64,000 nucleotides of DNA, taken from contig NZ_CP146991.1 of NCBI RefSeq assembly GCF_001941975.2, positions 1,117,501 to 1,181,500 on the forward strand, written 5' to 3'. Source of the stretch: Sporomusa sphaeroides DSM 2875. GTDB taxonomy: Bacteria > Bacillota > Negativicutes > Sporomusales > Sporomusaceae. A program made the translations under genes and the position numbers. The notes beneath the pieces are model-generated. The model saw only the letters and a program-made list of their open reading frames with translations. It was not told the DNA's origin and did not search any database. This document shows, one piece after another, positions 19,135-40,927 of this stretch; position 1 is the stretch's first letter; each line of letters begins with the position of its first letter.

Positions 19135-20475
19135 ATGGGTACTTTTATTGAACGGGCAAAATCGACATGTGCTCTGGGTGGTGCTATTGTTACCATAGCT
19201 TCATTACCGCGGGCTATTCCCATTGTTCATGCATCAGGCGGGTGCGCCACCATGCTGTCAGGCACCTATAACCAGGCAAGCGGTTACAAAGGTTCAGGCT
19301 ATTGCAGCGGCCATATGACACCTACCTCCAATGTTGTTGAAAAAGACATTGTTTTTGGCGGCGAGGAGCGGCTGGAGGAGCAAATTACCCACACGATCAA
19401 AATAATTGATGGAGATCTATATTTTGTTGTGACCGGCTGCCAGGTAGAAATCATCGGTGATGATGCCGTCGGTGTGACCCGGCGCTTCCAGGACGGTAAA
19501 CTGCCTGTGCTGGCAGCCAATACCCCCGGCTTTTTGGGTAATGGCTTTAAGGGCTATGATGTGGTGCTGAGTACTCTGGCTGCCGAATTTATCGAACCCA
19601 AGGCAGTCAAGGCGGCAAAGACCGTCAATATCTTAGGCATAATGCCGGGACAGGATGTCTTTTACCGGGGAAATATCAGCGGTATCCAAAACTTATTAAA
19701 CAAGCTGGGCATCAAAGCCAATACCTTTTTTGGCGATGGGGAAACCATCGAAACCATCAAAAATTACGGAGACGCAGCGCTGACAATTGTTTTTTCCGAC
19801 AGATATGGCATCGATACCGCCAAGGTTTTTGAGGAAAAGCATAACATTCCGTATATTACTGCAGACCTTCCCATTGGCGAGACCAGGACAGATGCTTTTT
19901 TACACACAATTGGCAGACATCTGGGAATTGAGCCGGCGGCCATTGAAGCGCTTATTGCTGAGGAAAGGCGCTATTATTACAGCTATCTCGAACGGTTTTT
20001 GGATATTTACGGCGATATCGATTTGCAGCGGTATGCCATCGTTTCGGCCGATATTAATTATGCTTTTCCGTTAATCAGTTTTTTGGCTGACGATTTGGGT
20101 TGGGTACCGCATCTTGTTGTTATCAATGAAGAGGTGGATGAGCTTGGCAAAAAGCGCTATGACCAGAAATTTAATCAACTGACTTCAGAGGCCAAACCCA
20201 AAGTCGTTTTTGAACAGCATGCCGGACAGCTGCTGAACCATATCCGGCAAAGCTGGCCTCATAACAGCAATGATAAGTATTATGATGCACTCAGTCCGGC
20301 TTTCCTTGTAGGCAGCAGCCTGGAAGGCTCTACCGCCCAGAAGATCGGAGCCGCATTCCTGCCGGTTTCCTTTCCGGTCACTAACCGGGCTGTTTTGAAT
20401 AAAGGCTACACCGGTTACCGGGGCGGGTTATCACTTGCCGAAGATCTATTTTCAGCGCTTGTCAGTAATCGATAG
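19135..20475 (+). CDS. Nitrogenase component 1-like subunit, NifK-like
   Basis: The 446-residue protein is of the oxidoreductase/nitrogenase component 1 family. Cysteines C37 (VHASGGC), C57 (SGYCSGH) and C102 (VTGCQVEIIGDD) correspond to the NifK region that ligates the P-cluster (C70, C95, C153 in Azotobacter). The middle one is displaced by about five residues relative to the following FGG. It lacks the NifK N-terminal extension. It should pair with the D-like subunit that follows 14 bp later. The K-before-D gene order is opposite to nifDK. It is distinct from BchN/B and CfbD because of its partner's cofactor cysteine and the presence of NifB in the region. The likely reaction is inference. 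Confidence 0.8.
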   Translation: MGTFIERAKSTCALGGAIVTIASLPRAIPIVHASGGCATMLSGTYNQASGYKGSGYCSGHMTPTSNVVEKDIVFGGEERLEEQITHTIKIIDGDLYFVVTGCQVEIIGDDAVGVTRRFQDGKLPVLAANTPGFLGNGFKGYDVVLSTLAAEFIEPKAVKAAKTVNILGIMPGQDVFYRGNISGIQNLLNKLGIKANTFFGDGETIETIKNYGDAALTIVFSDRYGIDTAKVFEEKHNIPYITADLPIGETRTDAFLHTIGRHLGIEPAAIEALIAEERRYYYSYLERFLDIYGDIDLQRYAIVSADINYAFPLISFLADDLGWVPHLVVINEEVDELGKKRYDQKFNQLTSEAKPKVVFEQHAGQLLNHIRQSWPHNSNDKYYDALSPAFLVGSSLEGSTAQKIGAAFLPVSFPVTNRAVLNKGYTGYRGGLSLAEDLFSALVSNR

Positions 20476-20489
20476 AAGGAGGCAGAATC

Positions 20490-22028
20490 ATGTCCAAATT
20501 AACCGAAAACCTTACTTATGATTATTTAGCCGCCGAGGCCGCGCCTACCAGAGAAGAACGGATTGAAGCAACCTATGCCTTTGGTGGCTCTTGCTCAAGT
20601 CTGAAACTTGGCATGGGAAAGGGCTGCACTAAGTATAATTGCCGGAAGTTTGCGCAAGGCGGCGGCTGCCAGTTAACCTTAGCCTTGGGCATTGTCAGAA
20701 CCTTTCAGAATACCGTGGTCATCATCCACGGGCCGCTGGGCTGCGCTTCCAATAACCTGGGGGTGGCCGGCTATAGTAAGACCTTCAGGGTGCTAAAGCA
20801 TAAACCGGTTACCGATAATATCTGGTTACACACCAATTTGGATGAAAATGATGTTATTTCCGGCGGCATTGACAAATTGCGTGAGGCAATAGTATATGCA
20901 GAGCAAGAATACCGTCCTGATGCTATTGTCATTGGCAATAGCTGCGTACCTGGAATTATCGGCGATGATATTGATGCTTTAATCGACGAACTGGACGGAC
21001 AGCTTTCGGCCCGGATAGTGCCTGTTCACTGCGAAGGGTTTAAAAGCAAGTTTGTTGCCACCGGCTATGATTCGGCTTACCATGGGGTATTGAAAAAACT
21101 GATTGATCCTGTAAAAAAAGCTAAAAAAACAAATCCAGGTGACAGTGCCGGGACAACTGCAGTGGAACAATATATTCACAGTAAGACTGTCAATCTTCTG
21201 AACGTGGGCTCCACCAGCTACGGCGATGAAGTGGAGTTATCAAGGCTGCTTAAAGCTCTTGGCCTGACAGTGCGTGTAATGCCGCTGTATGCAAGTATTG
21301 AGGAAATTTCCCGTATGGGGGAAGCTGCACTCAATGTCAGCATTTGCGCCACCCATGACGATTACCTGATTGGTCACTTGAAAGAGCGTTTTGGTACAGA
21401 ATATATAATCGATACCCTGCCGATCGGTATTAAGAATACCAATCAATGGCTGCGGGCTATTGCAGCATTCTTTAAGCTCGAAAATGAAGCAGAAGAACTA
21501 ATCGCCATGGAAACTCTCCAGATTGAAGCCGCTCTCGAACCCTTTAAAAAAGTGCTTAACGGCAAAACTGTTTTTGTCGGCGGCGGCGAGACCCGTATTT
21601 TTACAACTGCCGAATTTTATCAGTTTTTAGGGATGAAGGTTCTGGGGTTGAAACCGCATAATTTTGATCGTTTTGCCGTACCGATGATTGATGATATTGA
21701 TGATCCGGAGGCTGTTGTTGATGTGGCGCCAGGGCAGCCGGCCGAAGAACTGGTTGTACTCAACCGCCTCAGGCCTGATCTTTATGTCGGCCATACGGGA
21801 GCCAACGCCTGGGTAACCAAACTGGGTATTCCCACCACACCGCTTTTTGGCCAGTCATTTAACTATATGGGTTATTCAGGAGCCTTTGAACTGGCGAGAA
21901 AAGCGGCGAGAAGGCTGCAGAATACCGCTTTTGCAAAAAAAATAGCGGCCAATGTAGCCCTGCCGTTCCGGCCTGAATGGTATGCCAGTAATCCGTTTGA
22001 CAACATCAAAGAAGCACAGCAAGGTTAA
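20490..22028 (+). CDS. Nitrogenase component 1-like subunit, NifD-like (cofactor-binding)
   Basis: The 512-residue protein keeps the key NifD landmarks. C60, C85 (IIHGPLGC) and C152 (NSCVPGIIGDD) match the P-cluster ligands C62, C88 and C154. C181 sits in the conserved VHCEGF motif. C286 (LNVSICATHDDYLIGHL) aligns with FeMo-co ligand Cys275. At the place of His442 the sequence reads FGQSFNY, so Gln455 probably replaces the homocitrate-side ligand. An N-terminal cysteine-rich stretch (GSC, GKGC, YNC) is extra. The protein is predicted to hold a NifB-derived cluster but not typical FeMo-co. NifH and NifB lie 12-13 kb downstream. A C-S reductase akin to methylthio-alkane reductase is my preferred guess. 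Confidence 0.82.
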   Translation: MSKLTENLTYDYLAAEAAPTREERIEATYAFGGSCSSLKLGMGKGCTKYNCRKFAQGGGCQLTLALGIVRTFQNTVVIIHGPLGCASNNLGVAGYSKTFRVLKHKPVTDNIWLHTNLDENDVISGGIDKLREAIVYAEQEYRPDAIVIGNSCVPGIIGDDIDALIDELDGQLSARIVPVHCEGFKSKFVATGYDSAYHGVLKKLIDPVKKAKKTNPGDSAGTTAVEQYIHSKTVNLLNVGSTSYGDEVELSRLLKALGLTVRVMPLYASIEEISRMGEAALNVSICATHDDYLIGHLKERFGTEYIIDTLPIGIKNTNQWLRAIAAFFKLENEAEELIAMETLQIEAALEPFKKVLNGKTVFVGGGETRIFTTAEFYQFLGMKVLGLKPHNFDRFAVPMIDDIDDPEAVVDVAPGQPAEELVVLNRLRPDLYVGHTGANAWVTKLGIPTTPLFGQSFNYMGYSGAFELARKAARRLQNTAFAKKIAANVALPFRPEWYASNPFDNIKEAQQG

Positions 22029-25938: not shown

Positions 25939-26403
25939 TCACTGGATATGTTTTTTTGGTAATTTGGGGGATATTACCGTCTCGTCAGTTAAGAAGACAG
26001 GGTCCCCTATATTAATATAACCGCCTTTTAAGATGATGCCAAACCGGCCTTCTCTGCTAACTATATAAGGCCTACCCTGCTCTTTGTATTGTTCTTTACC
26101 GACATGTTTAATTTGTATTAAAACTTCATTGCCAATTTGTACGAAACTGTTGGCAGAAAACTGCTCAAGCGGAATCCCGGAAACGGTGATATTTTCAGTA
26201 TAGCCGCCGTTTATTACCTCATCATATTTTTCGGCGGGTACTTTGTTCATAGTCTCTATTGGAAATAAGCTTACTTGCCGATCCCAGTTACCACCATGGG
26301 CATCATTTTCCAACCCCCAATGTTCAATCACCTTTACCCTATTTATGCTATTTTTTTCGATACCTTTGCTTGAGCTTATGTGAATAGATAGAACAGTTCC
26401 CAC
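25939..26403 (-). CDS. MOSC domain protein without the conserved cysteine
   Basis: The 154-residue protein follows the MOSC pattern (a sulfur-carrier domain related to the molybdenum cofactor sulfurase C-terminus): HGGNWDRQVSLFP, GGYTENITVSGI, and a final REGRFGIILKGG. In typical members a GKECH...C segment supplies cysteines. Here the equivalent reads GKEQYKEQG and the whole protein has no cysteine. It may therefore bind a molybdenum or sulfur ligand without forming a persulfide. The start is a GTG with AAAGGAGG. It is downstream of the CDF gene on the same strand. Confidence 0.8.
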   Translation of the reverse strand: MGTVLSIHISSSKGIEKNSINRVKVIEHWGLENDAHGGNWDRQVSLFPIETMNKVPAEKYDEVINGGYTENITVSGIPLEQFSANSFVQIGNEVLIQIKHVGKEQYKEQGRPYIVSREGRFGIILKGGYINIGDPVFLTDETVISPKLPKKHIQ

Positions 26404-27848: not shown

Positions 27849-27919
27849 AAATACAAACAGGAATTAGATGGAATATCGTAATAACTTATCTTAATAAGAT
27901 ATATGAGGAGGTAACCTGG

Positions 27920-29344
27920 GTGATTCTGGCCAAGGAACAGATAAATAGATATTTACGGCATATTATCATGCCTGAAATTAGTGGTCCGGGACAGAAAAAA
28001 CTTTTAGAGTCGTCGGTTTTTATCTATGGAGAAAGTGTAAGCGCCGCAGCGCCGGCGATATATTACCTGGCTGCATCCGGTATCGGTTCCATACACTGTC
28101 AGTTCGCCGATACAGCAGGCTTTGACAAGCTTGCTGCCTGTATTCGTGACTTAAACGGCGATGTCTCAATCAGTTTGGCAGACGGACAGGATAGCGGTTT
28201 GCGAATTTTTCTGGGTGGACCGGAGTTTATCAAAAAATCCAAGTTGGCTTTTGCACACTTTCTTCCTGCCGTAGTGGCTCTTTATTACGGTTGGCTGGGC
28301 GGTATCCAGGTGTTTAAAGCCGAGGATGATCTGGATGTATTCCTGGCAAAACTGCCTGATTTACAACCAGCCGCAGCTGCCGCTGCTGATACAAAGATAA
28401 CTGCCGAAGTCTTTTCAACCTGCTTCCTGGGGGCGTTGTGTGCTATGGAGGCAATTAAACTGATCCTGGATATTGGCGAAACCGCAGGTGATTTCTTATA
28501 TTGCAATCTTTTCTCCATGGAGTTTTCTAAGGTTGGCCAGGCAGAACTGGAACAGACCCTGGCCGGGTTAGCTTCGGTACAAGCAACCACCGCCCTGAAT
28601 TTTGACCTGACCGACAGTAAAGTGCTGATTGTCGGAACCGGCGGACTGGGATCACCTGCCGCTTATGCACTGGCATCAGCCGGTGTTGGCACAATCGGTC
28701 TGGTAGATTATGATGCGGTTGAAATCAGCAACCTTAACCGTCAAATTCTTCATTCCGGGTCAAGAATCGGGATGCCGAAGGTGGAATCGGCGGCCCTGTT
28801 TTTACATGACATAAACCCGCAACTTAGTATTGATACATATCATACAGCTCTGAGCAAAGAAAATATTTATAGTATCCTTGAAAATTATGATCTTGTTATT
28901 GCGGCAGTTGACAATTTTCCTGACCGCTTTCTGCTGAATGATGCCTGCTTTTTCACGAAAAAGCCAATGCTCGATGCCGGTGTACTTAGATTTGATGGCA
29001 CCTGTATGAGTATTATAACACCCCAAAGCCACTGCTATCGCTGTACGCTGCCGGACATTCCTTCCGGCGGCAGTACGCCGACATGCGCTGAATCCGGGGT
29101 GCTTGGCCCGTTGCCGGGAATCATGGGCTTTCTCCAAGCAGCCGAAGCCGTTAAATTATTATCCGGTCAGGGGAATACCTTACACGATAGAGTATTATTC
29201 CTGGATGGAATGTTTTCTCATTTTGGCACCATACAGTTGCGCAAGCAGAGCGGTTGCCGGCTATGCGGTACAAATCCTGCAATCCACGAACTCCAGGAAT
29301 ATAAATTCGTATGTTCTGATGAGGAGGATACTCACCAGGAGTAA
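27920..29344 (+). CDS. Double E1-like (ThiF/MoeB) protein: inactive N-half, active C-half
   Basis: The 474-residue protein contains two ThiF/MoeB folds in tandem. Residues 1-~210 start like MoeB (RYLRHIIMPEISGPGQKKLL) and end with an ALCAMEAIKLIL helix. The ATP loop there is GESVSA instead of GxGGLG, so it cannot bind ATP normally. Residues ~228-474 are a complete adenylating domain: GTGGLGSP at 239-246, the NLNRQ arginine, zinc pairs CYRC and CRLC, and a cysteine in PTCAESGVLG. The layout recalls the pseudo-symmetric halves of ubiquitin E1. Typical MoeB/ThiF activates the C-terminus of MoaD or ThiS for sulfur transfer. No such carrier is visible in the window. GAGGAGG precedes the GTG. Confidence 0.85.
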   Translation: MILAKEQINRYLRHIIMPEISGPGQKKLLESSVFIYGESVSAAAPAIYYLAASGIGSIHCQFADTAGFDKLAACIRDLNGDVSISLADGQDSGLRIFLGGPEFIKKSKLAFAHFLPAVVALYYGWLGGIQVFKAEDDLDVFLAKLPDLQPAAAAAADTKITAEVFSTCFLGALCAMEAIKLILDIGETAGDFLYCNLFSMEFSKVGQAELEQTLAGLASVQATTALNFDLTDSKVLIVGTGGLGSPAAYALASAGVGTIGLVDYDAVEISNLNRQILHSGSRIGMPKVESAALFLHDINPQLSIDTYHTALSKENIYSILENYDLVIAAVDNFPDRFLLNDACFFTKKPMLDAGVLRFDGTCMSIITPQSHCYRCTLPDIPSGGSTPTCAESGVLGPLPGIMGFLQAAEAVKLLSGQGNTLHDRVLFLDGMFSHFGTIQLRKQSGCRLCGTNPAIHELQEYKFVCSDEEDTHQE

Positions 29345-34031: not shown

Positions 34032-34907
34032 ATGAGCAAAAAAATCAAGCAAATTGCCATTTATGGCAAAGGCGGAATTGGCAAATCGACAACAACTTCC
34101 AACATCAGTGCAGCGTTGTCAAAATTGGGTTATAAGGTAATGCAGTTTGGCTGCGATCCGAAGGCTGACTCAACCAATACGCTGCGCGGCGGTACGTACA
34201 TTCCTACAGTGCTTGATACACTGCGTGAGAAAAACAAGGTGCAGGCCGAAGATGTAATTTATAAGGGTTTTAATGGTGTGTATTGTGTGGAAGCAGGCGG
34301 GCCGGCTCCCGGTGTCGGCTGCGCCGGGCGGGGCATTATTACGGCAGTTCAGCTGCTTAAGCAATTAAAAGTATATGAAGAACTGGAACTGGATGTTGTT
34401 ATTTATGATGTTTTAGGCGACGTGGTATGCGGCGGTTTTGCCGTACCTATCCGTGAAGGTATTGCTGAGCATGTATTTACCGTATCTTCAGCCGATTTTA
34501 TGGCAATTTATGCGGCCAATAACTTATTCAAAGGAATTCAGAAATACTCTAATTCCGGTGGTGCACTGCTGGGAGGGCTGATTGCCAATTCAATCAATGT
34601 TCCCTATGCAAAAGAGATTGTGGATGATTTTGTACAGCGGACGCAAACCCGGGTGGTGGAGTATATTCCCCGTTCAGTAACCGTAACCCAGGCCGAGCTT
34701 CAGGGAAAAACGACAGTGGAAGCGTCGCCAGGTTCTGAGCAGGCGAAAATTTACAGCCGCTTAGCCCAAAAGGTAATAGAAACCACAGAATCCAAAGTTC
34801 CATCCCCGCTGGAAACAGCCGAATTACGCAAGTGGGCCGCCACATGGGCCGATCACCTGCTGGCCATGGAAACAGGTGAGGTTCGCAGTGCGGCGGCTGG
34901 TATCTAA
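34032..34907 (+). CDS. nifH: NifH-like nitrogenase reductase (Fe protein)
   Basis: The 291-residue protein has P-loop GKGGIGKST (residues 12-20) and cluster cysteines C97 (GVGCAGRG) and C133 ([13 protein letters not shown]). It has Arg100, the usual ADP-ribosylation position. As a homodimer it should pass electrons to a component 1 partner with ATP hydrolysis. The only component 1 candidates here are the NifK/NifD-like pair at 19.1-22.0 kb. [10 protein letters not shown] and the C-terminal tail look like NifH rather than BchL. It is followed 84 bp later by nifB. Confidence 0.85.
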
Positions 34908-34991
34908 GAGGGATTATCCGGAAGTTAAGCCCTCCCCTGCCGCTGCTGACATGTTGCTTTAAACGGGGGCAAAAAAAGCGAGGTGAATTGT

Positions 34992-36275
34992 ATGGGCAGC
35001 GTATGCTTCAGTACGCTACATGCTGATGTTCTGGAAAAAACAAGTAAGCATCCTTGCTACTCGGCAGATGCTCATCATAAATATGCCCGGATGCATTTGC
35101 CGGTGGCTCCCCGGTGTAATATTCAATGTAATTATTGTAATCGTAAGTTTGACTGTGTCAATGAAAGCCGTCCGGGAGTCACCAGCGAGGTATTGACACC
35201 AGAGCATGCTAAAGATAAATTTGCCTGGGTTAAAGAAAAAATGGAACACCTCAGTGTTGTTGGCATTGCCGGACCGGGTGATGCGCTGGCTGACTGGCTG
35301 TTCACCAAACAGACAATTAAACACATTCAAGCCCTGGATCCGGAGATTACCTTCTGCTTATCGACAAATGGATTGCTGCTGCCAGAATATGCGCCTGAAA
35401 TTGTGGCTTTAGGTATCCGTCATGTTACAGTAACGGTTAATGCGCTGGATCCGGCGATCGGGGCAGAAATTTATCAGTTTGTATCCTATCAGGGTAAATG
35501 GTACACAGGTGTCGCAGCAGCAGGACTGTTGCTGCATAATCAGTTGGCAGGCATAGCGTATTTAGTTAAACATGGTGTTATGGTTAAAATCAATATAGTT
35601 ATGATTAAAGGGCTTAATGACAGACACATACCGGCGGTTGTCAAAAAGGTAAAGGAACTGGGAGTGTTTGTTACCAATATTATGCCGCTCATTCCCGCGC
35701 CGGGCAGTGCCTTTGAGCACTTACCCCAGACCAGCATGAAAGACCTGAATACCTTAAGGGATGTTTGTCAGCTTGATATTCGCCAGATGCGCCACTGCCA
35801 GCAATGCCGGGCCGATGCCATCGGCTTGCTGTATGAAGACCGTTCGCAGGAATTCCGGATGTGCGACCGGCCTCAGGACGGCGTAACGGTAAACAACGGG
35901 AACCGGAAGCTTTACCGGATTGCTGTTACCTCAAAATATGGAAAACTAGTGGATCAGCATTTTGGTCATGCCACTAAACTGCTTATTTACCAGGGCGATG
36001 GACTCCAGTTTCAGCTCCGTGAGACCCGGACGGTAGGTCGGTATTGTGCCGGGATGTCAGAGTGTGATGCCGAGGCTGGGGACAGCGGGAGGGAGAAGAT
36101 TATTGAGGCGCTGAAAGATTGTAATGCGGTACTGACAATGCGTATTGGCTATCATGCGAAAGAGCGGTTGCGAGATAAGGGGATTTTTATCTCAGAATAC
36201 TGCGATACAGTAGAAGCAGGTCTTCGCTATGCAGCAGCTCAAATGCAGTCTCAGGGCGCGGCAGAAAATGAGTAG
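34992..36275 (+). CDS. nifB: NifB cofactor-maturation radical SAM protein with NifX-like domain
   Basis: The protein of about 427 residues carries the full NifB signature: HPCYS and AHHKYARMHLPVAP, then CNIQCNYCNRKFDC with the CxxxCxxC radical SAM site (about residues 42-49). Downstream come ESRPGV and CQQCRADA. A C-terminal NifX/NafY-like domain starts near residue 305 (YRIAVTSKYGKLVDQHFGH). NifB builds the carbide-containing [8Fe-9S-C] NifB-co, so its presence implies that the nitrogenase-like enzyme here uses a complex cofactor. GCGAGGTG before the ATG at 34992 decides the start over a GTG at 34983. Confidence 0.9.
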   Translation: MGSVCFSTLHADVLEKTSKHPCYSADAHHKYARMHLPVAPRCNIQCNYCNRKFDCVNESRPGVTSEVLTPEHAKDKFAWVKEKMEHLSVVGIAGPGDALADWLFTKQTIKHIQALDPEITFCLSTNGLLLPEYAPEIVALGIRHVTVTVNALDPAIGAEIYQFVSYQGKWYTGVAAAGLLLHNQLAGIAYLVKHGVMVKINIVMIKGLNDRHIPAVVKKVKELGVFVTNIMPLIPAPGSAFEHLPQTSMKDLNTLRDVCQLDIRQMRHCQQCRADAIGLLYEDRSQEFRMCDRPQDGVTVNNGNRKLYRIAVTSKYGKLVDQHFGHATKLLIYQGDGLQFQLRETRTVGRYCAGMSECDAEAGDSGREKIIEALKDCNAVLTMRIGYHAKERLRDKGIFISEYCDTVEAGLRYAAAQMQSQGAAENE

Positions 36276-36440: not shown

Positions 36441-37373
36441 ATGTCTAACATTGCCGGCAGTATCACTGCTTTAATCGGCGGTACGCCATTGCTGCGCCTG
36501 AATAAGGTAACAGCCGGGGCTCAGGCAGAAATCGTGGCTAAACTGGAATCCTTTAACCCTGGCGGCAGTATTAAGGACCGCATCGGTTTCAGCATGATTA
36601 AGGACGCTGAGGAAAAGGGACTTATCAATGAAAATACGGTAATTATCGAGCCTACCAGCGGCAATACCGGCATTGCCCTGGCCTTAATTGCCGCTGCCAA
36701 AGGGTACCGGCTTATCCTGACCATGCCGGAGACCATGAGTGTGGAACGGCGCAGTCTGTTGAAAGCATACGGTGCGGAACTGGTGCTCACTCCCGGTGCG
36801 GCAGGCATGAAAGGAGCTGTTTTAAAAGCCGAAGAATTAGCTGCTGTGACGCCAAATTCATTTGTGCCGCAACAGTTTAATAATCCGGCTAATCCGGAAA
36901 TTCACCGGGCCATTACCGCAGACGAAATATGGAAGGATACAGACGGTAAAGTAGATATTATCGTTGGCGGTGTTGGTACAGGCGGTACGATTACCGGTGT
37001 GGGGGAAGTACTCAAACAGCGCAATCCTAATATCAAGGTGGTCGCGGTTGAACCCTTGGATTCCCCTGTTCTTTCCGGTGGGCAGCCCGGCCCTCATAAG
37101 ATTCAGGGAATTGGGGCAGGTTTCGTTCCCTATGTACTGAATTTGGATGTAATTGATGAAATCTTTAAAGTGAAGAATGAAGAAGCCATTACTACCGCAC
37201 AGCGTTTGGCTAAGGAAGAAGGCGTACTGGTCGGCTTTTCTTCCGGTGCAGCGGCGTTTGCCGCCCTGCAGGTAGCCAAAAGACAGGAAAATAAGGGGAG
37301 GTTAGTGGTGGTTATTTTGCCGGACACCGGTGAGCGGTATCTTAGCACCGTACTTTTTGCAGAAAATAAATGA
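36441..37373 (+). CDS. cysK: Cysteine synthase (O-acetylserine sulfhydrylase), copy 1
   Basis: The 310-residue PLP enzyme shows [11 protein letters not shown] with the Schiff-base lysine (about residue 42), [26 protein letters not shown] and a C-terminal [11 protein letters not shown]. It joins sulfide to O-acetylserine to give cysteine. It is very similar to copy 2 at 44038. It heads a unit with an orphan SsuB-like ATPase 63 bp downstream. Confidence 0.93.
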
Positions 37374-40612: not shown

Positions 40613-40753
40613 AAAAAAACGACTCCACCGTAAGAAGAGTCGCCTGTATGCGCTGATAACTCATCTTCCGGATTGCTCCGCTGGATTTAGCACCTTGCAT
40701 TGCTGCCGGTTGCCGGGTGTCATAGGGCCAGTCCCTCGACCACTCTCGATAAG
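40613..40753 (-). promoter_or_regulatory. SAM-I (S-box) riboswitch with terminator
   Basis: On the minus strand the aptamer begins CTTATCGAGAGTGG (plus 40753 downward), continues GGGACTGGCCCTATGA and CCCGGCAACC, has a GGTGCTAAATCC segment and closes with GATGAG (plus ~40660). These are S-box hallmarks. A terminator (plus 40613-40643) with seven T follows. It turns metB off when S-adenosylmethionine is plentiful. Confidence 0.95.
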
Positions 40754-40927
40754 TTTAATTATTTAATTTTATTGGATTTTATTTTTGCATACTTAATACA
40801 ATTTGTCAATAGATATTTTTATGCTTTTTATCTCTTGCCTGCTTGATATTGACGCCGGTTGAAAAACCGGATATCATGATTTCAACAGGAGATAACTATT
40901 TTGGGAATACGGGGAGGCAGTAACAGT

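Follow-up and report, generated by a model that had tools for sequence, protein, structure and literature searches.

The adenylation chemistry of MoeB and ThiF is already known, as are E1 enzymes that hold an inactive and an active adenylation domain in a single chain, both in eukaryotes and in the bacterial protein BilD. MoeB and ThiF of E. coli are made of two identical chains, both of which bind ATP, according to the accessible part of PMC12355090. The same text matches Gly41, Arg73, Lys86 and Asp130 of MoeB with active-site residues of human UBA1, and reports that Arg57 and Arg515 of UBA1 hold a pyrophosphate mimic, as in MoeB. BilD belongs to the BilABCD anti-phage conjugation system and, in the accessible part of PMC11354881, is described as a bacterial single-chain E1 with an N-terminal inactive and a C-terminal active adenylation domain.

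Here we describe a protein of Sporomusa sphaeroides DSM 2875 whose gene lies in a window of 64,000 nucleotides (positions 1,117,501 to 1,181,500 of contig NZ_CP146991.1). Nucleotide positions below count from the start of this window unless another locus or a chromosomal position in Mb is given; L and G numbers are our labels for loci and genomes. The initial annotation, made from the letters alone, had called the protein a double E1 with a dead N-terminal ThiF half, and structure prediction, genome comparison and an accounting of E1s and carriers upheld this description. Drawing on the computed fold, conserved residues, reciprocal loss of motifs, tree grouping and genome accounting, we consider it probable that the protein is a single-chain MoeB-type E1 with one dead half, which adenylates MoaD/ThiS-family sulfur carriers chiefly for the cofactor of tungsten aldehyde ferredoxin oxidoreductases (AOR), and ThiS where ThiF is missing.

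Architecture of the double E1

The whole protein matched PF00899 with an E value of 1.7e-79, the best match covering residues 229-447. The N-half alone (residues 1-227) reached 26.8 bits, just below the cut-off of 28.1, and its residues 3-64 matched an NCBIfam MoeB model with 61.2 bits (6.5e-17), which bears out the MoeB-like start first attributed to it; the late helix AMEAIKLIL was likewise found where it had been placed, at residues 175-183. Alignment of N-half and C-half profiles (hhalign) paired 183 columns with a probability of 96.9, an E value of 2e-10 and 22% identity. GESVSA stands in the place of the ATP loop, as had been claimed, and a gap of about 19 columns additionally removes the loop that holds Arg73 and Lys86 in MoeB, so that the ATP site of the N-half is partly deleted, beyond mere mutation. 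Loose GxGx[LVI]G matches in three N-halves (L005, L007 and L008) were rejected as ATP loops; they align to a G-V-G-H-I-G turn and not to the ATP-loop position.

Folded alone, the N-half gave a pLDDT of 87.0. Its best structural match was MoeB 1jw9 (189 residues, rmsd 3.4, Z 19.2), and the next were ThiF and chains of APPBP1-UBA3. An N-half without the ThiF fold had been named in advance as the outcome that would overturn the annotation; in the predicted model this half is a true ThiF fold. Residues 1-20, which include R13, are among the least confident (block pLDDT 47 and 42 in the full model; 61 and 55 when the N-half was folded alone).

The C-half scored 284.4 bits against the NCBIfam subfamily model PRK05690.1 (cut-off 266), and the double E1 stayed below the cut-offs of the MoeB equivalog models. 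The double E1 gave 72.6 bits against the TcdA model, short of the cut-off of 304, and 71 bits against the Ube1 model, a score that belongs to the whole protein, the N-half giving no Ube1 row. In structural matches the C-half is 38-39% identical to MoeB, with 39% for 1jw9, and it aligns to MoeB residues 29-248 over 221 residues with no inserted Cys domain, the chain ending 24 residues later. Equivalents of MoeB Gly41, Arg73, Lys86 and Asp130 are present together with two CxxC pairs, C372/C375 and C446/C449, which we take to be the zinc ligands of the MoeB-type domain; these pairs and the GTGGLG loop at residues 239-244 lie just where the annotation had them. In a set of 20 double E1s, ranging from Sporomusa to Clostridium and including one Aminicenantes MAG, 51 columns were invariant, R274, K287 and D331 among them, and Gly242 was invariant in 20 of 20. 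The features of the gene and protein are listed in Table 1.

Table 1. Features of the double-E1 gene and its product in the window
Feature	Position	Strand	Basis or remark
Double E1, inactive ThiF/MoeB domain plus active MoeB domain	27920..29344	+	474 aa, GTG start
Ribosome-binding site GAGGAGG	27905..27911	+	Read from the sequence, 8 nt 5' of the GTG
N-half, residues 1-205, MoeB fold without ATP site	27920..28534	+	Profiles and N-half model
R10-Y-L-R13, retained R-x-x-R motif	27947..27958	+	R10 and R13 invariant in 20/20 rows; motif in 21/21
GESVSA, residues 37-42, replacing the GxGGLG ATP loop	28028..28045	+	Sequence, N/C profile alignment
C-half, residues 229-450, full MoeB domain minus its own N-terminal helix	28604..29269	+	Structural match, NCBIfam
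GTGGLG ATP loop, residues 239-244	28634..28651	+	Sequence, conservation
R274, MoeB Arg73	28739..28741	+	Alignment; invariant; residue named in PMC12355090 (accessible part)
K287, MoeB Lys86	28778..28780	+	Alignment, conservation, PMC12355090 (accessible part)
D331, MoeB Asp130	28910..28912	+	Alignment, conservation, PMC12355090 (accessible part)
First zinc pair C372-Y-R-C375 (presumed ligands)	29033..29044	+	Invariant in 10/10; motif in 21/21
C389, crossover-loop cysteine	29084..29086	+	Cysteine also at the aligned position in E. coli ThiF and MoeB; nearly invariant
Second zinc pair C446-R-L-C449 (presumed ligands)	29255..29266	+	Invariant in 10/10; motif in 21/21

The two halves show a reciprocal loss of motifs. 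In all 21 double E1s compared, which had been chosen by the presence of an ATP-loop motif, R-[YF]-x-R stands at the start of the N-half, where NLxRQ is missing, and NLxRQ is found in the C-half together with the Lys86- and Asp130-type motifs, the crossover cysteine and the two zinc pairs. No R[YF]xR occurs within the 48 residues preceding the C-half ATP loop in any of the 21; three single MoeBs compared have RYSR about 27 residues upstream of theirs. The two active sites of a symmetric homodimer are not found here, one half being without the ATP loop and the Arg73/Lys86 segment. We take the R-x-x-R of the N-half to occupy the position of MoeB Arg14, the arginine finger. In MoeB this finger is contributed by the other subunit, and Arg14, like the corresponding arginine of Uba1, works in the partner's active site. 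Because of the reciprocal loss and the role of this arginine in MoeB and UBA1, we infer a single composite active site, to which the N-half would donate the arginine and the C-half all else.

In the mechanism that we propose, a MoeB-type adenylyltransferase homodimer has been turned into a single chain. The N-half, MoeB-like in fold, would give the partner surface and probably the arginine finger R13, and the sole working ATP site would sit in the C-half. There the C-terminal glycine of MoaD/ThiS-family carriers would be adenylated, after which sulfur, from a donor that we likewise only infer, would be loaded as thiocarboxylate.

A full model built from 20 sequences (mean pLDDT 83.6, pTM 0.87) superposed on BilD 8tz0 over 382 residues at once (rmsd 3.3, Z 33.7) and on 8tyz with a Z of 33.6; chains of Uba1, Uba6 and Uba7 were matched mostly over 375-414 residues with Z of about 28-31. 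Both halves thus fall on these enzymes in one piece, and in the predicted models the pseudo-symmetric arrangement of inactive and active adenylation domains that characterizes a canonical E1 is present, as the annotation had proposed. The catalytic-cysteine and ubiquitin-fold domains of a canonical E1 are absent. With MoeB and ThiF the protein shares the fold of both halves, the ATP-site residues of the C-half, the zinc cysteines and, likely, the chemistry, but it is one chain with one working site. Uba1, Uba6 and Uba7 show the same order and arrangement of domains, but are about 1000 aa long and distant in sequence (71 bits), whereas the double E1 has 474 aa and lacks FCCH/SCCH and ubiquitin-fold domains. 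BilD shares the architecture, which is therefore not unique among bacteria; BilD, however, has a catalytic Cys domain, and the double E1 has none, a MoeB-like C-half and a metabolic context.

Distribution, lineage and probable clients

A search for the same fusion, which the annotation had recommended, found it in 22 further genomes, giving 23 with S. sphaeroides, at N-half identities down to 34%. Besides S. sphaeroides, these are seven genomes of the same genus, one from another genus of the family (G011), UBA5324 (G045) and G130, both within the class, and 12 others. The 12 are a lower bound because that search required exact short peptides; they include Geosporobacter subterraneus, Clostridium bowmanii, C. 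frigoris, C. psychrophilum and Thermovorax subterraneus, the remainder being MAGs labelled Syntrophomonas, Aminicenantes, Thermosediminibacteraceae, Tepidanaerobacteraceae, Thermoanaerobacterales, Clostridia and Bacillota. Within the class, 11 of 380 genomes encode a double E1; a tally of 14 had included three N-terminal matches whose frames (283-287 aa) are as long as ordinary E1s. The truncated protein of L081 and that of G130, which was found later, were left out of the tree and the accounting, leaving 21.

The C-halves of all 21 double E1s formed one group (96/90) in an unrooted tree calculated from 78 proteins, and this group was joined with 10 single MoeB-like rows (98/96). Two over-long E1 rows (G004 C48 and G067 C49) were left out, and none of the branches flagged as long belonged to a double E1. 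As judged from sequence, by the score of 284.4 bits and by this grouping beside single MoeBs, the C-half belongs to the MoeB lineage. Its nearest relatives (98/96) are MoeBs of a JAB/sulfite-reductase/PLP cluster, for which we assume the name HcyF; these are single-domain proteins, and the one in S. sphaeroides has its own ThiS-family carrier 35 bp away. The single-domain E1s of AOR clusters (PERYxRNxGTIG family) share the genomic place of the double E1, but have one domain and fall in a different part of the tree. Independence from BilD and Uba1 rests on scores, because neither was in the tree.

AOR (PF02730) was found in 20 of the 21 double-E1 genomes, the exception being G006. Within the class it occurs in 10 of 11 double-E1 genomes versus 26 of 369 others (Fisher 1.7e-10, kinship ignored). 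A gene of the AOR cluster was present in the retrieved flank of 8 of 22 loci (one member Pfam-checked), and also in G130. AOR-MoaD clusters often include MoeB, as stated in the accessible part of PMC1779556, and among 18 AOR genomes without a double E1 (60-genome set, read by hand) a single E1 lay less than 10 kb from AOR in 14. The double E1 therefore often occupies the usual place of a single E1.

Carriers with Gly-Gly ends are present in double-E1 genomes. Of 68 carrier matches, four inside frames of 728-749 aa (G068:C43, G045:C26, G069:C100 and G067:C152) and two under the curated cut-off (G061:C249 and G070:C79) were removed; 39 of the remaining 62 lie less than 10 kb from an AOR. The single carrier match of C. 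bowmanii (G062) has the double E1 at a distance of 0.6 kb and AOR at 1.3 kb. A second MoaD-like protein was seen in L071 (8801-9124; Pfam ThiS 26.7 bits), with an extended C-terminus, PPGxPGPYR...LGF, and no Gly-Gly end; similar genes lie in L203 (9182-9472) and L200 (6915-7316).

The complement of other E1s, whose classes were checked on representative proteins, varied among the 21 genomes. In six of them (G006, G061, G062, G066, G069 and G070) any other PF00899 matches above the cut-off were all TcdA-type, a label that denotes the best match (a representative scored 171.9 bits, below the cut-off of 304); the absence of an E1 is weak in four of these six because they are MAGs. Three more (G001, G008 and G063) have, besides TcdA-type proteins, only a thiamine-type ThiF, whose own carrier is about 0.2 kb away. 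Single E1s of MoeB-like or AOR type are kept in G000 (S. sphaeroides), G011, G045, G060, G064 and G068 (one of them frameshifted, with others), an unclassified ThiF-like protein is carried by G003, G005 and G007, and G004 (L230) and G067 (L231) encode E1-E2 fusion proteins of anti-phage type (PADLOC 795 and 630 bits). The double E1 is thus the exclusive E1 in part of the genomes only, because others keep further ThiF-family proteins. By eye, the thiamine-type ThiFs of L222, L208, L220, L223, L227 and L213 have a ThiS-like stretch N-terminal to the E1 domain.

G006 has one carrier, the ThiS of its thiS-thiG-thiH operon; thiF is missing from this operon and likewise from that of S. sphaeroides. 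The other MoeB of S. sphaeroides (3.134 Mb) is surrounded by JAB, sulfite-reductase-like and PLP genes, and 35 bp separate it from its own carrier. Two AOR-linked carriers are found at 1.622 Mb and 1.625 Mb, the latter not ending in Gly-Gly. No carrier was found near the double E1 in this genome, and AOR is 474 kb away; the link between them is one of inventory, not of position. The search for an orphan carrier, also recommended at the outset, gave the ThiS of the thi operon and the two AOR-linked carriers, none with an E1 beside it, and the double E1 is therefore the candidate for all three.

The usual partner of MoaD is MoaE, which gave matches in 7 of the 21 genomes and none in S. sphaeroides; these matches were weak (25.0-30.7 bits), so that distant forms may be missed. 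With MoaE in 7 genomes although AOR is in 20, the large subunit of molybdopterin synthase may be replaced or diverged.

Co-occurrence with AOR and the accounting of E1s and carriers support the earlier suggestion of sulfur-carrier activation for a cofactor, which is probably the role of the protein. The main clients would be the MoaD-type carriers encoded beside AOR, and ThiS is probably also served in genomes without ThiF, S. sphaeroides included. The pathways in which the double E1 most likely takes part are those to the tungsten cofactor and to vitamin B1.

Neighbouring genes and alternative explanations

The MOSC, rhodanese and cation-efflux genes beside the double E1 in the window, all on the opposite strand, had been read as clues to its function. 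MOSC does recur, in three Clostridium loci at a distance of 4-7 kb, but the rhodanese fusion and the cation-efflux gene occur in none of the 21 other loci; an FtsX permease recurs in one and a nitrogenase-like pair in three. Window neighbours were rejected as functional clues, and the useful links (AOR, MoaD-type carrier, IscU-like gene) came from other genomes or from elsewhere in the S. sphaeroides genome.

Several features of these surroundings were recorded in their own right. The MOSC protein (25939-26403, minus strand), just below its Pfam cut-off, has the motif GKEQYKEQ, without the cysteines found there in its relatives of the three Clostridium loci (GKECHAGCE or GKECHKGCE). The nitrogenase-like pair, in the region of 19135-22028 / 34032-36275, has nifE as its best NCBIfam match (99.8 and 173.5 bits versus 505.1) and is accompanied by NifH (413 bits) and NifB (480 bits), both above their cut-offs, and by cysK (36441-37373). 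This is an uncharacterised nitrogenase-like reductase set, and its cluster is also found in the double-E1 flanks of three other loci. No Moco or TPP riboswitch reached the gathering score in 16 loci (L087-L091 not among them) or in the window; a SAM riboswitch lies at 40658-40755 (minus strand, 82 bits), about 11 kb from the double E1.

An IscU/NifU_N-type gene stands directly upstream of the double E1 in 10 of 22 loci (L074 9616-10029, L080 4444-4845 and eight more), but not in the S. sphaeroides window. Numbering Cys35 as in IscU, and with ligand roles at its Cys and His positions as we assume them, this cysteine is Asp in 10 of 10 proteins. Both remaining cysteines are invariant, and where a His would precede the third ligand cysteine these proteins carry Lys, Leu, Gln or Arg. 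With Asp in all ten, the three ligand cysteines that define an IscU/NifU scaffold are not complete, and one member scored 172.3 bits against TIGR03419 (cut-off 187.9). Within the class, proteins at 229 bits or more occur in 6 of 11 double-E1 genomes versus 0 of 369 others; these six score 229-233 bits and the next protein 204.8. Across 30 loci retrieved, the Cys35 position was Asp in 6, Cys in 23 and incomplete at an edge in 1. In Sporomusa KB1 and S. ovata the gene stands behind an AOR-MoaD pair.

A C-terminal relic of the IscU-like gene lies upstream of the double E1 in KB1 and S. silvacetica (0 of 200 shuffles as good). One seen by eye in the S. sphaeroides window was discarded, as 195 of 200 shuffles were equally good; L077, L078, L079, L087 and L089 did not pass the shuffle test either (128, 99, 55, 163 and 149 of 200). 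The only S. sphaeroides match above the IscU threshold (2.198 Mb) has the canonical Cys. By score and cysteine, the IscU-like protein is absent from S. sphaeroides, G003, G004 and G008, four of ten double-E1 genomes (G000, G001, G003-G008, G011 and G045). Substitution for MoaE was considered and rejected: among genomes with the IscU-like protein, MoaE is present in G001, G005, G007 and G045 and absent in G006 and G011, which gives no pattern. Our literature search found no description of such a partner.

These observations bear on a dedicated relay, in which the dead half would dock the IscU-like protein (Cys35 to Asp) and the enzyme would deliver or route sulfur, or alternatively an Fe-S unit, to the carrier once activated; such a relay would supplement the sulfur-carrier E1 and not exclude it. 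The upstream gene in 10 of 22 loci with relics in two more, its position beside the AOR-MoaD pair in two Sporomusa genomes and its confinement by score to double-E1 genomes of the class argue for the relay, but the protein is missing in S. sphaeroides and the three other genomes, and we regard the relay as rather unlikely. The annotation had spoken of cofactor or cluster assembly. The cofactor part stood, whereas the one thing pointing to cluster assembly is the IscU-like neighbour of other genomes, a protein without a defining cysteine.

The N-half could also be a decoration, regulating or docking partners of an ordinary MoeB homodimer formed through the C-halves. Its lower identity to S. sphaeroides in nine relatives (51-62% versus 60-67% overall) would fit such a role, but all 21 C-halves lack the N-terminal R-x-x-R helix that the N-halves keep, and the model sets both halves as in Uba1 and BilD in one superposition of about 375-414 residues, which makes a decoration improbable.

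BilD being the best whole-length structural match (8tz0 and 8tyz, Z 33.7 and 33.6), the double E1 might instead be the E1 of a ubiquitin-like protein-conjugation system and not a sulfur-carrier enzyme. We judge this very improbable. The C-half aligns to MoeB without the Cys domain of about 80 residues described for BilD in the accessible part of PMC11354881, and the protein scores 284 bits to MoeB against 71 to Ube1. PADLOC E1-E2 models gave at most 71.5 bits for three double E1s against 795 and 630 for E1-E2 proteins from two of these genomes, the BilD model gave 37.5 bits for one of the three among the matches listed, and no E2 or JAB appeared among 20 neighbouring proteins run through Pfam, a subset of the neighbours. 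With low PADLOC scores and no Cys domain, a defence-system role was rejected as the main reading. A decaying or non-functional fusion, for which the deleted catalytic loop of the N-half and the lack of a nearby carrier partner in the window might speak, is hardly credible given an open frame and 51 columns invariant in 20 sequences, whose sources range from Sporomusa to Clostridium and include one Aminicenantes MAG.

Evolutionary meaning of a probable MoeB-type single-chain E1

Our literature search found no MoeB-derived single-chain E1 without a Cys domain in a metabolic setting, and an earlier mention is possible. It is conceivable, although doubtful, that the double E1 represents a separate metabolic origin of the pseudo-symmetric E1 beside the BilD/eukaryotic line, with a dead half that acts as arginine donor and as landing site for a degenerate IscU-like protein in a sulfur relay for the tungsten cofactor.

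The path from the symmetric MoeB dimer to the lopsided ubiquitin E1 is usually argued from its end states. In the case described here, fusion, loss of one ATP site and matching loss of the other N-terminal helix seem to have occurred within a MoeB lineage, with no cysteine domain gained. Protein conjugation may thus not be required for fusion and asymmetry to arise. For acetogens and clostridia the double E1 would also offer an enzyme of tungsten-cofactor synthesis that can be tested, together with its putative IscU-like partner.
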